32,240 bases of DNA from an uncultured bacterium (GTDB lineage: Bacteria; Cyanobacteriota; Vampirovibrionia; Gastranaerophilales; Gastranaerophilaceae): NCBI GenBank assembly GCA_949297715.1, contig CASFTJ010000015.1, positions 1-32,240 of the forward strand, written 5' to 3'. This document shows, in pieces, positions 1,107 through 28,128 of this stretch. Each line of letters starts with the position of its first letter. Position 1 is the first letter of the stretch. The notes beneath the pieces were generated by a model. The model did no database searches and was not told the origin of the DNA. It saw only the letters and a list, made by a program, of their open reading frames with translations. Position numbers and translations under genes: made by a program.

Positions 1107-2024
1107 ATGATTTTGATTGGCGAAAATATCCATGTCGTTTCCAAAAATGTTAGAGAAGCACTTTTAAAACGTGACGAAAGTTTTGTAAAAAAGCTTTTGG
1201 ATATTCAAAGCGGTATGGATTTTGCAGATTTGAATGTCGGCCCAGCAAGAGGTGAATTAAGCGGAATTTTAAGTTGGATTTGTCCGATTGTTGAAGAAAA
1301 TTCCGATTTAAAAATTTGTTTGGATACGACAAATTTTGATGAAATTGAAAATGTTTTTAATATTATAAAAAATCCTGAAAGAGTGATTTTGAACAGTACA
1401 ACTGGTGATGATTTAAAGCTTGAGCAGATGACGGATTTTGTTTGTGAGAAGGGGTGCGGTTTAATTGCTCTTACAATGACAAAAGAAGACGGAATTCCCA
1501 AAAGCTGCGACGGGCGAATGGAGATTGCGTTTAAAATTTACGAAAAATGTTTGGAAAAAAATATTGCGGACAAAGTTTATTTTGATCCGCTTATATTACC
1601 AATTAAGGCAGATCAAACTCAGGCAAAAGAGTCGCTTGATACTTTGAAAATGCTCAAGGAAGCTTTTGAAGTTCCTGTTAAAACCGTAATCGGACTTTCA
1701 AATATTTCAAACGGGGTACCTGAGAAGTTAAGGAGATTAATTAACAGAGTTTATGCGGTGCTTGCATTTGGTGCAGGGTTGGAGGCTGTGATTATGGATG
1801 CTTCGGACTGCGAATTAAAGAAAATTTTTAAAATGCTTGAAGCTCAAAATCCTCAAAATTCTTTAGATAAGCTTTATTTAAGTTTATGTGAAATGATTAA
1901 AAATTTTGGGGATTTGGAAGATATTGAATATGACAAAAAAGATTGTGAACAGGTAGAGATTATAAAAACTTGCGAAGTGTTGTTAAATAAAAAAATATAT
2001 TCTGACAGTTTTGCACAAGTTTAA
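1107..2024 (+). CDS. Pterin-binding methyltransferase, AcsE/MetH-type (methyl-H4folate:corrinoid methyltransferase-like)
   Basis: The 305-residue protein has the size and layout of a stand-alone pterin-binding TIM barrel as in AcsE and the second domain of methionine synthase. It opens with MILIGENIH, a typical AcsE-like start. Strand-end motifs follow in order: DLNVGPAR (about 42-49), LDTTN (72-76), ILNSTTGD, ALTMTKEDG, FDPLILPI, VIGLSNISNG and IMDASD. The Asp/Asn positions are those that usually contact the pterin ring. Family members move a methyl group from methyl-tetrahydrofolate to a corrinoid protein. No corrinoid protein, CO dehydrogenase or methionine synthase gene is adjacent, so the partner is unknown. 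Dihydropteroate synthase is less likely because the FolP signature is absent. The start has no Shine-Dalgarno sequence but has an extended -10 box 6 nt upstream. Confidence 0.75.
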   Translation: MILIGENIHVVSKNVREALLKRDESFVKKLLDIQSGMDFADLNVGPARGELSGILSWICPIVEENSDLKICLDTTNFDEIENVFNIIKNPERVILNSTTGDDLKLEQMTDFVCEKGCGLIALTMTKEDGIPKSCDGRMEIAFKIYEKCLEKNIADKVYFDPLILPIKADQTQAKESLDTLKMLKEAFEVPVKTVIGLSNISNGVPEKLRRLINRVYAVLAFGAGLEAVIMDASDCELKKIFKMLEAQNPQNSLDKLYLSLCEMIKNFGDLEDIEYDKKDCEQVEIIKTCEVLLNKKIYSDSFAQV

Positions 2025-2093
2025 TTTTTATGCTAATATATTGCTAAAGATACACAATGTTATTTGTAAAGGGTTGAGGTTATTATTAAAATC

Positions 2094-2108
2094 AGGAGCG
2101 GGAAAATT
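2094..2108 (+). promoter_or_regulatory. Shine-Dalgarno AGGAG followed by a probable ATT start codon
   Basis: AGGAG (2094-2098), seven bases, then ATT (2106-2108) followed by AAA AAG CAG. Translating ATT as Met gives a textbook signal peptide. The open frame extends upstream only to a TAA at 2067 and holds no ATG, GTG, TTG or CTG before the ATG at 2148, which lies inside the hydrophobic core. Confidence 0.6.
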
Positions 2109-4208
2109 AAAAAGCAGTTATTAACAGTTTCGGCAATTTTAGCGTTAATGTTAACGGGTGTTCAGGCAGAGGCTTATATGTCGCCTGAAGCAAATTCTTT
2201 ATATCAGCAGGCTTGTTCTTTAGAGTATCAGCATAATTTTGATGAAGCTATTTTGAAGATTCAGGAAGCTATTAAAATAGCAGGGGATGATGCACTTCTT
2301 TATACAAAGCTTGCCGGACTTTTGACGGAAACAGACAGGTATGATGAAGCAATTGAGGCTTATAATACGGTTGTAAAACTCAGACCTGATGATGCTTTTG
2401 TGTATATCAGTATCGGTAATATTTACGAAACACAATCTAAGTATATTCAGGCGCTCGAAGCGTATAATCAGGCGCTTAAACTTTTCCCGCAGTACAAGTA
2501 TAATTATTTAAATATCGCAAATGTCGAATATTTAATGAACGATTATAATGCGGCGATTGAAAATTATGAAAAGTTTTTGGAAACTTATTCCAACCATAAA
2601 GAAGCAAGAGAAAGTCTTGCAAATGCCTATCTTTCGGCGAATAAACCTGATAAAGCCGTTGAAGAATATTCAAAGCTTTATGAAGCTGATCCTGCAAATT
2701 TTAAGTATAATTCTAACTACGGTCTTGCATTATTTCAAACAGAAAATTACGCTAAATCTGTCGAATTTTTGGAAAGAGCTATTGAGCAGGAACCTGACAG
2801 TTTGTCTTCACACATAAGCCTTGCGCTTTCCTATCAGGAACTTAATAAAAAAGAAGAAGCTTTAAGACAATATGAAATTGTATTTAATCAGGCGCCGAAT
2901 TTGCATTCAATAAGGTTTGATTATGCAAATCTTCTTGCGGATATGGGTAGAAACGGTGAAGCGATTGCACAATATAAAATTTATGCTGAAAATTATCCTG
3001 AAGATGTCAGAACTTTTAAAAATATGGCAATTGTTTATAAAAGACTTAATGATTACGATAATACGATTGCTAATTACGAGAAAGCTCTTGCACTTGACGG
3101 TAAAGATTTGGATATTAAAAAAGAACTTGCAACTTGCTATCATATGAAGAAAGACTACGCCAGTGCGCTTAAATATTATGATGAAGTTCTGCAAGCAGAA
3201 CCGAATAATTATGATGTTAAAGTAAACAGAGCAATAGCACTTCACGCTCAGGAAAAATATGAAGATGCAATATCAGTTTATAAAGAACTGCTTACTCAAA
3301 AAGAAAATCCGATAATAGAAAGTAATTTAACTGATGCTCTTGTGGCACAAGGAAAAATTGATTTTGATTTGAAAAATTATTCAAAAGCATCGGAAGAATT
3401 TGAACAGGCGATATCCAGAGGAACGAAAGACGGATTTGCATACTATGGGCTTGCAAAATGTTATCGTGTTAGCGGCGCAACTAATAAAGTCGGCGAATTG
3501 TATGAAAAAGCGGTTGAATTGTCACCGCAGCAGAAATTGTTTAGTGATGAATATGCTGAATTTATTGCGGAAGTAAATGCTGCTGAGGCAGCTGCGCAGG
3601 CTTCGACTGTACAAACTCAATCTGCAAATGATATGCGGCCTGTTGAATTGGAGGTTCCTGCGGATACTTCTAAGCAGACTTCGGATGGCAAGCTTCCGTC
3701 TATAAGTGTTGAGGATAAAGATAAAAATGTTGTTAAAGTTGCAAATGTCGATAAAAGTAAAGATTTAATCGCTAAAGGTGATGAAGCTTATAAAAAAGAC
3801 AATTTTAGCGGTGCTGTTGAAAATTATAAAGCAGCTTTGAAAATTAATGCAAATGATGAGGAAACCCTTCTTAAGCTTGGTAATATTTATAAAATGCAGA
3901 ATGATAACAGCAAAGCGCTTGATTTTTACAAAAAAGCTATTTTTGTAAATCCTGACTATGCTGACGGATGGTTTAACCTTGGACTTGTATATGCTAATGA
4001 CAATAATATTTCAAAGAGCAAGGAATGTTTTGAAAAGGTAATTTCTTTGAATGCTGAATATGCTTATGCTTATTATGCTCTTGCGATTGCGTATGAAGAA
4101 GAAGGTAATAAAGCGGAAGCGATAGAAAATTACCGTTCGTTTTTAAAATATAACAAAGATTCCAATATGGTAAAAGTTGTGGAAGACAGGATTAACATTT
4201 TACAGTAA
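2106..4208 (+). CDS. Large secreted tetratricopeptide-repeat protein, likely ATT start
   Basis: With initiation at ATT 2106 the product is 700 residues. It starts with a signal peptide (KKQ, then a hydrophobic core, then GVQA, with predicted cleavage after residue 21). About 13 consecutive TPR units follow (residues about 31-485), then an Ala/Thr/Asp-rich linker (about 487-550), then four more TPRs to the C-terminus. The repeats show the usual A/G-8, Y-11 and A-20 pattern, as in YDEAIEAYNTVVKLRPDD. TPR superhelices are protein-binding scaffolds, and here the location would be periplasmic or outer-membrane associated. The next gene, a small lipoprotein, begins on the A of the stop codon (TAATG), so the pair is translationally coupled. 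The first ATG, at 2148, would remove most of the signal peptide. The partner and exact role are unknown. Confidence 0.85.
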   Translation: MKKQLLTVSAILALMLTGVQAEAYMSPEANSLYQQACSLEYQHNFDEAILKIQEAIKIAGDDALLYTKLAGLLTETDRYDEAIEAYNTVVKLRPDDAFVYISIGNIYETQSKYIQALEAYNQALKLFPQYKYNYLNIANVEYLMNDYNAAIENYEKFLETYSNHKEARESLANAYLSANKPDKAVEEYSKLYEADPANFKYNSNYGLALFQTENYAKSVEFLERAIEQEPDSLSSHISLALSYQELNKKEEALRQYEIVFNQAPNLHSIRFDYANLLADMGRNGEAIAQYKIYAENYPEDVRTFKNMAIVYKRLNDYDNTIANYEKALALDGKDLDIKKELATCYHMKKDYASALKYYDEVLQAEPNNYDVKVNRAIALHAQEKYEDAISVYKELLTQKENPIIESNLTDALVAQGKIDFDLKNYSKASEEFEQAISRGTKDGFAYYGLAKCYRVSGATNKVGELYEKAVELSPQQKLFSDEYAEFIAEVNAAEAAAQASTVQTQSANDMRPVELEVPADTSKQTSDGKLPSISVEDKDKNVVKVANVDKSKDLIAKGDEAYKKDNFSGAVENYKAALKINANDEETLLKLGNIYKMQNDNSKALDFYKKAIFVNPDYADGWFNLGLVYANDNNISKSKECFEKVISLNAEYAYAYYALAIAYEEEGNKAEAIENYRSFLKYNKDSNMVKVVEDRINILQ

Positions 4209-4615
4209 TGCGAAAGATTTTATTTACGGTCTGTATATTATTCATAATGCTTTTCACAACTGCCTGTGATGAGGAAAAGCCCGGAATACTTTTTAACAAA
4301 TATCCGATAACGATTGATACCGTTATGGGGCATGAGCAGGTTTTTGAAAGAGGAACAAGGATTTATTATCTTGTTGTTATGCCTCAGAAAATTCATTCAA
4401 GATTTATGTATCTGCAAATTGTAAAAAAAGATAACGATTACGGCAGACTGGGGTATAAAGTTTATTATGGTAAAGACATAAGATTAAAGGATGAGCAGGT
4501 TTATTATTATGACGATTATATAGTTATAAACCAGTCCGGTGATTATGTAATGCAGGTTTTTTCACGTGACAACCCGAGAACCCCTTTAACTATGAACGAG
4601 TTTTGGGTTAAGTAA
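4208..4615 (+). CDS. Small lipoprotein of unknown function, coupled to the TPR gene
   Basis: The 135-residue product begins with a lipoprotein signal peptide: MRK, a hydrophobic stretch, then FTTAC with Cys20 as the predicted lipidation site. The mature part is rich in Tyr and beta-branched residues and ends in a basic tail. It contains no motif I can name and looks like an all-beta domain. It overlaps the stop of the TPR gene by one base, so the two proteins probably act together at the envelope. The gene ends 5 bp before the convergent radical SAM gene. An AT-rich 16-nt perfect palindrome (4617-4632) covers the junction and may act as a weak terminator. Confidence 0.7.
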   Translation: MRKILFTVCILFIMLFTTACDEEKPGILFNKYPITIDTVMGHEQVFERGTRIYYLVVMPQKIHSRFMYLQIVKKDNDYGRLGYKVYYGKDIRLKDEQVYYYDDYIVINQSGDYVMQVFSRDNPRTPLTMNEFWVK

Positions 4616-11344: not shown

Positions 11345-11355
11345 TTTTTAACAAA

Positions 11356-11384
11356 TTGATTATCGGACGTTTCTTATTTATAAT
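11356..11384 (+). promoter_or_regulatory. Promoter of the histidine kinase gene, leaderless spacing
   Basis: TTGATT (11356-11361), 17 bp, then a perfect TATAAT (11379-11384). The six bases TTAGGC separate the -10 box from the ATG at 11391, placing the predicted start point on the A of the start codon. Confidence 0.65.
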
Positions 11385-11390
11385 TTAGGC

Positions 11391-13049
11391 ATGAAAAAGT
11401 TCGACATATTCAACCGTTTTAGGGATGCGGTAATTATTGTAAACAACAGCGGGGATGTTGTTTATAAAAATAATAAATTTAAAAGATGGTTTTCGGAGTT
11501 TTCGGGGCTTAAAAAATTTTCGCATAATGTGAATTTTGATATCTGCCCGCTTGAAAGTGATAATATCCGAAACTATTCTCCCATCTATAATGCGCTGATT
11601 TCTAAAGAGGATTTTTCAGCAAGAATTTCTTACCAAAGTGAAACCGGAGAACTTAAATATTATGACCTTTTTGCTGCTAAAAGATGGCGTTATACTATAA
11701 TGTTTTTTTCTGACATAAGCGCCGAAACAGAGCTTAATTCAATTGAAAAACAAAATCAAAAACTTAAAGAACAAATAAATATTCTTGAAAAACAAAACGA
11801 AGATTTGATGAAAATTAAACAAAAAGCGCAATCCCAAGCTATCCGAATTGCACTTATAAACAAAGTTTCCAACACAATCAGAGAGTCGATGGATTTGTCC
11901 GTAATTTTGGTTTCAGCGTTGAAAGAATTGTCTGTAATGTTCGGTGCTTTTAAAACTTATTATGCATCTTACAATGAGAAAAAATTTTTTATAGAAGAAG
12001 TTTATCCGTCTAAAAATTCCGAGTTAAAAAAAGAATTTGAATTTGATGAAGAAACGGCTGAAACTATTCTCTCACAAAGGATTTCGATACAGTATATTTT
12101 GAAAGAATTTAAAAATGCCCACCCGTTTAAGCAGCCTGTAATGCGGATTGCTCTTCCGGTTTTTCATCTCCAAAACCTAATCGGAGTGATAGTTTTGCTG
12201 AGTTACAACAAAAGGGAATTGAATGAAGAATTGGAAATTCTGGAAGCAATCTCTTCGCAATTAGGAAACGCAATTATAAGAGCCGAACTTTATAATAAAA
12301 ATATTCAAACCGTTCATCAGCTCCAGAATGCATTGAAAGAGCTTAAAGAAACACAACTTCATTTGATAAATTCGGAAAAAATGGCATCTCTCGGTCAGCT
12401 TGTTGCAGGAGTAGCCCATGAAATTAATACTCCGGTCGCTTCAATTAAATCGAATAATGCAATACTTTCAAAGTTTATTCCCCGCATAGAAGATGCTGAA
12501 ATATCCTCGATACTTGCTGATATCAATGAAGTTGACCGTGAAGCAATACAAAGAATCAGCCATATGGTAACTTCATTAAAAAAATTCGTTCGTCTTGATG
12601 AAGCCGAACTTCAGGAAGCCGATATTAACAAAGAGCTGGAACTAACGCTGGACTTGATTCGCCACGAAACAAAGAACAGAATAGAGATTGAAAAACATTA
12701 CGGAGATATCCCTCTTATAAAGTGCTATCCGAATATGCTAAATCAAGTATTCACCAATGTTTTGGTCAATGCTTGCCAGGCAATTGAAGGGTGCGGAAAG
12801 ATAACAATAACGACTTCTTATGAGGCTAAAACTTTGACTGTGTCTATAAAAGACACCGGAAAAGGAATTGAAAAATCAGAAATTAATAAAATTTTTACAG
12901 CCGGATATACTACAAAGGGAGTAGGAGTCGGAACAGGATTAGGATTAGCGATTTCTGCAAAGATAATTGAAAAGCACGGGGGCGAAATTATTGTAAACAG
13001 TGAGGTCGGCAAAGGTACCGAGTTTATTATTACTATCTGTAGTGAGTAG
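11391..13049 (+). CDS. Soluble PAS-GAF sensor histidine kinase, orphan
   Basis: The 552-residue protein has an N-terminal PAS-like domain (about 1-110), a Gln/Lys/Glu coiled coil (about 115-155), a GAF domain (about 160-300), a second short coiled coil, and a HisKA/HATPase_c kinase core. The phospho-acceptor is His343 in AGVAHEINTP. The N box NVLVNACQAI, G1 box DTGKGIE and G2 box GTGLGLAISAKIIEKHGG are complete, so it should autophosphorylate. There is no transmembrane segment, so it senses a cytoplasmic signal. No response regulator is adjacent. The H-box and the kinase core next to a GAF domain recall cyanobacterial-type sensors. It begins 46 nt after holB with its own promoter. AT-rich gene-free DNA follows. 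Confidence 0.92.
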   Translation: MKKFDIFNRFRDAVIIVNNSGDVVYKNNKFKRWFSEFSGLKKFSHNVNFDICPLESDNIRNYSPIYNALISKEDFSARISYQSETGELKYYDLFAAKRWRYTIMFFSDISAETELNSIEKQNQKLKEQINILEKQNEDLMKIKQKAQSQAIRIALINKVSNTIRESMDLSVILVSALKELSVMFGAFKTYYASYNEKKFFIEEVYPSKNSELKKEFEFDEETAETILSQRISIQYILKEFKNAHPFKQPVMRIALPVFHLQNLIGVIVLLSYNKRELNEELEILEAISSQLGNAIIRAELYNKNIQTVHQLQNALKELKETQLHLINSEKMASLGQLVAGVAHEINTPVASIKSNNAILSKFIPRIEDAEISSILADINEVDREAIQRISHMVTSLKKFVRLDEAELQEADINKELELTLDLIRHETKNRIEIEKHYGDIPLIKCYPNMLNQVFTNVLVNACQAIEGCGKITITTSYEAKTLTVSIKDTGKGIEKSEINKIFTAGYTTKGVGVGTGLGLAISAKIIEKHGGEIIVNSEVGKGTEFIITICSE

Positions 13050-27130: not shown

Positions 27131-27159
27131 TTGCCAAATAAAATATTTTAATATATAAT
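27131..27159 (+). promoter_or_regulatory. Promoter of the ROK kinase gene
   Basis: TTGCCA (27131-27136), 17 bp, TATAAT (27154-27159). The ATG lies nine bases further, so the predicted leader is only about 3 nt. Confidence 0.7.
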
Positions 27160-27168
27160 TTTGTCAAT

Positions 27169-28128
27169 ATGAAAAAGTATTCAATCGGAATAGATTTAGG
27201 CGGAACCAAGATTCTCACGGCTCTTATAAACAGGGAAACGGGAGAAGTTGTGGACTCCGTAAAGAAGAAAACTAAAAAAGAAAAAGGCCCTGAAAATATA
27301 ATTCGAAAAATGAAGGAAGGAATAGAAGAACTTTTTGAAGAAACTTCTGTTAAAAAGGACGAAATTTCATCAATCGGAATAGGTGCGGCAGGACAGATAG
27401 ACAGAGAAAACGGAATACTAATTGGTGCGCCTAATTTGGATTGTTATGACTTAAGTATTCGGGATTTAATTTATGATTATTTTAAAATACCTGTATATTT
27501 AGGTAATGACGTAGAGATTGCAACGATAGGGGAAATGAAATTCGGCGCTGCAAAAGGGTGTGATGATTTTGTATGTATTTTTGTTGGAACCGGAGTAGGT
27601 TCTGCGATTGTAAAAAACGGTGAGATAATCAGAGGTGCAACAGGAACGGCAGGTGAAATAGGGCATATCATAGTTGATTTGAACGGTCGTCCTTGTGCTT
27701 GCGGAGCGCATGGGTGTTTGGAGGCTTATGCATCAAGATCTGCAATAGAAAAAAGGATTGAGGGTGCTCTTAAAAAAGGCAGATATTCTGTTATTTTGGA
27801 TTATCTTGAAAAAGGCAAGTCTATTTCTTCAAGCATGATAAGAAAATCAATCGAAAGAGATGATGAGCTTGTGAAAGCTTGCGTGGATGAAGCAAGTGAA
27901 TACCTTTCAGGCGGAATTGCTAGCATTATAAACTTTGTTAATCCGAAACTTATAGTATTAGGCGGTGGATTAATTGACGCAGTGGATTATTTTTATAAAA
28001 ATACAATTAAAAAGGCAAGGGCAAAATCTTTGCCTGTGCCTGCAAGTAAAATAGAATTTAAAAAAGCTGAGCTCGGTGATTTTTCAGGAGTTGTCGGGGC
28101 TGCGTTTTTAGAATACAGAAAATTATAA
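27169..28128 (+). CDS. ROK-family sugar kinase, glucokinase-like
   Basis: The 319-residue enzyme belongs to the ROK family. The ATP-binding DLGGTK is at 9-14, the catalytic Asp114 lies in LGNDVE, and GVGTGVGS-like loops are present. The zinc signature GHIIVDLNGRPCACGAHGCLE has His166, Cys176, Cys178 and Cys183. Bacterial ROK kinases of this type phosphorylate glucose or related hexoses with ATP. The divergent secreted GH13 enzyme suggests glucose from alpha-glucans as the source. There is no DNA-binding HTH at the N-terminus, so it is a kinase, not a repressor. The heptosyltransferase gene begins four bases after its stop, so they share a transcript. Mannokinase or N-acetylmannosamine kinase activity cannot be excluded. 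Confidence 0.9.
   Translation: MKKYSIGIDLGGTKILTALINRETGEVVDSVKKKTKKEKGPENIIRKMKEGIEELFEETSVKKDEISSIGIGAAGQIDRENGILIGAPNLDCYDLSIRDLIYDYFKIPVYLGNDVEIATIGEMKFGAAKGCDDFVCIFVGTGVGSAIVKNGEIIRGATGTAGEIGHIIVDLNGRPCACGAHGCLEAYASRSAIEKRIEGALKKGRYSVILDYLEKGKSISSSMIRKSIERDDELVKACVDEASEYLSGGIASIINFVNPKLIVLGGGLIDAVDYFYKNTIKKARAKSLPVPASKIEFKKAELGDFSGVVGAAFLEYRKL

Follow-up and report, generated by a model that had tools for sequence, protein, structure and literature searches.

A deeply conserved AUU start codon, probably weak and IF3-sensitive, at the head of a putative two-gene envelope operon in Gastranaerophilales

Known bacterial genes that depend on an AUU, AUA or AUC start codon are few. In Escherichia coli, infC autoregulation exploits the destabilising effect of IF3 on 30S complexes at AUU-type codons (PMC5472188). 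The AUU start of E. coli pcnB is likewise described, in the account that cites the original work, as limiting expression (Binns and Masters 2002, cited in PMC13009471). Two Staphylococcus aureus genes, cvfC1 with AUU and ccpN with AUA, reach about 10% of AUG expression and carry extended Shine-Dalgarno (SD) sequences (PMC13009471), and in Streptomyces the sigR gene, which starts with GTC, is repressed by IF3 (PMC5472188). Nothing relevant on start-codon use or leaderless mRNAs in Gastranaerophilales came up in a literature search.

The gene described here, which encodes a predicted secreted TPR-repeat protein of an uncultured Gastranaerophilaceae bacterium, can be compared with each of these systems. 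Like infC (AUU in E. coli; AUA, AUC or AUU in Gastranaerophilales), it joins an AUU-type start to a good SD, and in both genes the weak-codon class is conserved while the exact codon drifts; infC is moreover present in the same genome, with AUA. However, infC encodes IF3 itself, which closes an autoregulatory loop, whereas the TPR product is a secreted protein. The pcnB gene resembles the TPR gene in having an AUU start without encoding an initiation factor, but its product is a cytoplasmic poly(A) polymerase, with no homology to the TPR protein. The staphylococcal genes share a conserved non-canonical start with a strong SD, and cvfC1 is also the first gene of its operon; unlike the TPR gene, both encode small cytoplasmic regulators of Bacillota, and their starts were verified by experiment, whereas the TPR start is supported by sequence. 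In sigR, a non-canonical start is conserved across the genus together with a strong ribosome-binding site and is substituted within its weak class (GTT in 2/34), as in the TPR gene, yet the codon is GUC rather than AUU, the product is a sigma factor and the IF3 effect was shown by experiment. The TPR gene joins this known small class of AUU-type starts, with an unusual phylogenetic depth.

The window, that is, the whole stretch of 32,240 nucleotides that was analysed, belongs to a genome of 2.0 Mb that is 99.6% complete. The features of the locus, with the evidence for each, are as follows:
2010..2039, plus strand: putative promoter, with -35 box TTTGCA at 2010-2015 and extended -10 element TGC-TAATAT, TAATAT at 2034-2039 (conserved motif)
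2067..2069, plus strand: in-frame stop TAA upstream of the TPR gene (sequence)
2094..2098, plus strand: Shine-Dalgarno AGGAG, 7 nt spacing (invariant in 14/14 species of the genus; anti-SD confirmed in sister genomes)
2106..2108, plus strand: proposed AUU (ATT) start codon (14/14 species of the genus; 42 ATT, 1 ATC and 2 ATA among 109 orthologues)
2106..2174, plus strand: predicted signal peptide (M)KKQLLTVSAILALMLTGVQAEA (translation; third-position-biased substitution in congeners; canonical-start orthologues begin about there)
2106..4208, plus strand: predicted secreted TPR-repeat protein, 700 codons, AUU-initiated (Pfam TPR models; predicted solenoid; orthologue in 370/383 family genomes)
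4208..4615, plus strand: small lipoprotein-like gene, second in the putative operon, whose start overlaps the stop of the TPR gene in TAATG (conserved neighbour)

The frame of the TPR gene is open from the TAA at 2067-2069 through 4208. After this stop the codons read AGG GTT GAG GTT ATT ATT AAA ATC AGG AGC GGG AAA ATT(2106), and from 2106 they continue as ATT AAA AAG CAG TTA TTA and on to ATG(2148). When the frame was read codon by codon, the window sequence bore out the preliminary description on several counts: ATG, GTG, TTG and CTG are absent between the stop at 2067 and the ATG at 2148, this first ATG falls in the middle of the signal peptide, and ATT 2106 is placed 7 nt after the AGGAG at 2094-2098. 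The secretory N-terminus claimed from 2106 likewise held, since translation gives (M)KKQLLTVSAILALMLTGVQAEA followed by YMSPEAN..., a typical signal peptide. Three further near-cognate codons lie in frame upstream (ATT 2082, ATT 2085 and ATC 2091); among the four, a well-placed SD is kept by relatives for ATT 2106 only. A search for the 16S 3' end gave no result in the assembly that contains the window but succeeded in sister genomes, and the anti-SD ACCTCCTTT is intact in the 16S of G003 and G006.

The encoded protein matches the Pfam models TPR_1, TPR_2 and TPR_16, with E-values down to 3e-71 and arrays of 34-residue TPR helices. Its predicted structure is a TPR solenoid (mean pLDDT 87), for which the best Foldseek matches are TPR superhelices, e.g., the OGT TPR domain. 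No Pfam family matched the lipoprotein-like gene at 4208..4615. A homologous gene of about 135 aa either overlaps the TPR stop or lies at most about 45 nt from it at nearly all orthologous loci examined, and with such a conserved overlapping neighbour, the expression of both genes of this putative envelope operon is probably governed by the start codon.

Each of the 14 species of the genus carries one clear TPR orthologue, with identities of 69-100%. The comparison of orthologues that the preliminary description had asked for in connection with its AUU start lends that start strong support: ATT stands at the start codon in 14/14 species, and in the same 14/14 it is preceded by AGGAGC, with a spacing from AGGAG to ATT of exactly 7 nt. 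Upstream of the ATT, 13 of the 14 congeners have no canonical in-frame codon; in the exception, L015, an in-frame ATG stands seven codons ahead of the ATT, yet both AGGAG and ATT are kept. A stop codon lies five codons ahead of the ATT in L005 and L011 and eight codons ahead in L013, and L014 has a frame-changing indel farther upstream, so neither upstream near-cognates nor a hidden canonical start explains the group. Downstream, substitutions among congeners in codons 2-16 number 270, 113 and 394 at positions 1, 2 and 3, a third-position-heavy pattern like that of coding sequence. The 14 proteins have 19 invariant-Ile columns, the start column included; besides the start, just one of them (1/18 of the other invariant Ile columns) is all-ATT, so ATT is kept at the start more than expected by chance. 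At other invariant degenerate columns the codon is also invariant in 25/338, so common descent could account for part of the ATT conservation.

Beyond the genus, the TPR orthologue was present in 370/383 genomes sampled from the family, and 5' ends were read for 109 orthologues from this and related families. The sole plausible start was ATT in 42, ATC in 1 (L063) and ATA in 2 (L072 and L216), the last three being substitutions inside the weak class; AUU, AUC or AUA thus starts 45 of the 91 unambiguous orthologues. Canonical starts were found in 46/109, mostly more distant (ATG 43, GTG 2, TTG 1). The remaining 18/109 are ambiguous, either because the weak codon is kept with an ATG, GTG or TTG a few codons upstream or because the exact start is unclear (genus g10), and at these loci, L015 included, AUU may not be the sole start. 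Several other genera also have a stop just upstream, namely g54 (TGA GGA GCA GGG AAA ATT), g2 (TAA GGA GTT AAA AAA ATT) and g7 (TAG GAG AGT GGG ATT ATT); in L005, L011, g54, g2 and g7, the 3-5 codons between stop and ATT include none that is canonical. In distant orthologues the canonical starts occupy about the same place, ahead of the signal-peptide core (L026, GTG AAA AAA CAA; L029, ATG AAA AAA GAA), and this shared position of their ATG or GTG confirms the start site. A conserved ATG in orthologues, which the preliminary description had named as grounds against an AUU start, is seen in more distant relatives only and not among congeners.

A maximum-likelihood tree of the orthologues was built with the N-terminal segment left out. 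On this tree the weak class makes up the majority of one large clade and appears again in g48/g13/g57/g18 and in g29, which belongs to another family, with a minimum of six class changes. Several genera have switched to AUG, so a brake exerted by the start codon is apparently not indispensable.

Read from these 5' ends, the orthologues show start codon and SD changing together. Median SD energy was -7.7 kcal/mol for weak-start orthologues versus -4.7 kcal/mol for canonical-start ones (Mann-Whitney p 9e-10, uncorrected for kinship), against a baseline median of -4.35 in 68 ATG genes of one sister genome. In kinship-corrected pairs, 4.4 of 5 pairs agreed and none was reversed for the weak class alone (p about 0.13, five pairs being few); with GTG and TTG counted as weak, 5.4 of 8 pairs agreed (median p 0.03).

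In the main clade, the promoter motif TTTRCA-(17-19 nt)-TAAWAT lies ahead of almost every AUU-type orthologue, and the form TTTRCACAA...TGCTAAWAT has one exact occurrence in the genome under study, at 2010-2039. From its position we infer that transcription in the window begins near 2046, which would give a leader of about 60 nt. In most other AUU genera, the -10 box ends about 25 nt before the ATT and the leader is about 18 nt, which leaves no room for an upstream start.

Several other explanations of this start region were weighed. The AUU could be a real start that is simply tolerated, efficient enough by virtue of its strong SD, without a regulatory role and persisting by inheritance. We consider this improbable. 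The strength of the SD, the short and simple mRNA leaders and the switch of several lineages to ATG or GTG would all fit it, yet a single T-to-G change would create ATG and is seen in no closely related AUU-type species, whereas ATC and ATA have arisen, in small numbers. In addition, infC is the one further gene of this type in the sample, and reporters in other systems lose about tenfold with AUU or AUA (PMC13009471). The preliminary description had also left room for a recent ATG-to-ATT mutation or a read error at 2108. The assembly is fragmented and single errors can occur in such data; nevertheless, the same codon in independent assemblies of 14/14 congeners, and in many further genera, disposes of a recent mutation and leaves an assembly or sequencing error with a negligible probability.

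Placing the start elsewhere fares little better. Initiation at a non-canonical codon farther upstream (ATT 2082, ATT 2085 or ATC 2091) is highly improbable: a GAGG at 2076-2079 is suitably spaced for ATT 2085, and L015 carries an ATG at the 2085 position, but stops cut these positions off from the gene in L005, L011, L013, g54, g2 and g7, the frame-changing indel of L014 falls there, some congeners have GTT or AGT at 2091, and the SD of these codons is not conserved. The stops, the indel and the altered codons of relatives thus reject the three near-cognates as a shared start. Marginally less credible still is a start at Met 2178, just past the signal peptide, or at Met 2148, which would yield a protein without a signal peptide. 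Gene finders would pick 2148, and Met 2178 is found in most orthologues, with a GAGG 5 nt before it in the genome under study. The orthologue comparison rejects both, since Met 2148 is missing in L012-L015 and many others and Met 2178 in L023, L024, L081, L082, L085 and L088, codons 2-16 evolve as coding sequence, canonical-start orthologues begin ahead of the signal peptide, and the conserved strong SD precedes the AUU rather than 2178.

Translation of the TPR gene almost certainly starts at AUU 2106, which, judged by sequence, is the sole start consistent with all congeners, deeply conserved and compensated by a strong SD. It is likely that this AUU is a selected low-efficiency start, probably sensitive to IF3, and we have reasonably good confidence in the whole reading, i.e., an old, conserved weak start, probably responsive to IF3, that holds down expression of a two-gene envelope operon. 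In the mechanism we infer, with its low efficiency, IF3 sensitivity, coupling and any physiological signal, one conserved promoter would give an mRNA with a short leader, and the strong, precisely spaced AGGAG would recruit the 30S subunit to the AUU. The initiator tRNA would read this codon poorly, so that IF3 proof-reading would throttle initiation, as known for infC and pcnB. The output of the secreted TPR protein would thereby be kept low, as would that of the lipoprotein-like gene through the overlapping stop and start, and both would probably become sensitive to the state of free IF3 and 30S.

An IF3 control point for the TPR gene is plausible because the infC gene in this genome begins with AUA and because the codon varies among AUU, AUC and AUA. 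This infC (L121; C5 ~65569-65829, minus strand) has the context TAA GGA GAT ACA ACA ATA GCA AAC. Across the order, infC (L106-L135), whose start codons were located by match coordinates, begins with AUA, AUC or AUU after GGAG or AGGAG, and never clearly with AUG. A tentative and rather doubtful extension is that infC and the envelope operon make up an IF3 regulon in Gastranaerophilales, both keeping a weak AUU-class start across tens of genera; if true, the state of translation initiation would set envelope composition.

The rarity of such starts in the lineage was surveyed in stretches of five sister genomes, covering 371 orthologous groups, 134 of them in three or more species, by searching for coding sequence that is conserved upstream of the first canonical codon. 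Ten of the 371 groups were flagged, and only infC and the TPR gene were convincing cases without a canonical start; the flagging of infC indicates that the test recovers a known positive control. The other eight flags were two-species pairs that by eye were conserved leaders before ATG or GTG, or were uncertain and possibly wrong-strand ORFs. The idea that AUU starts are a general habit of the lineage is thus unsupported.

Standard gene finders cannot call AUU-type starts, and at this locus they would trim the signal peptide, so that a secreted protein would look cytoplasmic. The results suggest that further genes of this kind would emerge from comparative screens aimed at conserved AUU-class starts. 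The natural AUG-, AUA- and AUC-type orthologues are ready-made controls, and the TPR gene makes start-codon weakness as a selected expression dial directly testable.

Elsewhere in the window, a type-IV-prepilin-like gene at 145-657 (MLDMIELQGGGAPKNSSLRGKETGFTLAEVLI) has a run of 11 G at 168-178 in its first codons. In 1.6 Mb of the window and sister genomes, there are 19 G runs of at least 8, all 11-13 long, and at least 13 of them stand directly before a prepilin motif. The G11 of the window is in frame, and nearly all the other runs (G12/G13) set the SD-led ATG out of frame; together these have the appearance of a prepilin family subject to phase variation through poly-G contingency tracts. 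A second ORF, at 659-973 in another frame, directly follows the prepilin-like ORF, and the pilin gene may be frameshifted in the window. Finally, at 11351-11420 and 27141-27200, and at orthologous places in G004, G006 and G012, TATAAT lies about 5-9 nt before ATG. These genes, several in number and conserved between species, have no SD and probably give leaderless mRNAs in which the -10 box abuts the start codon.
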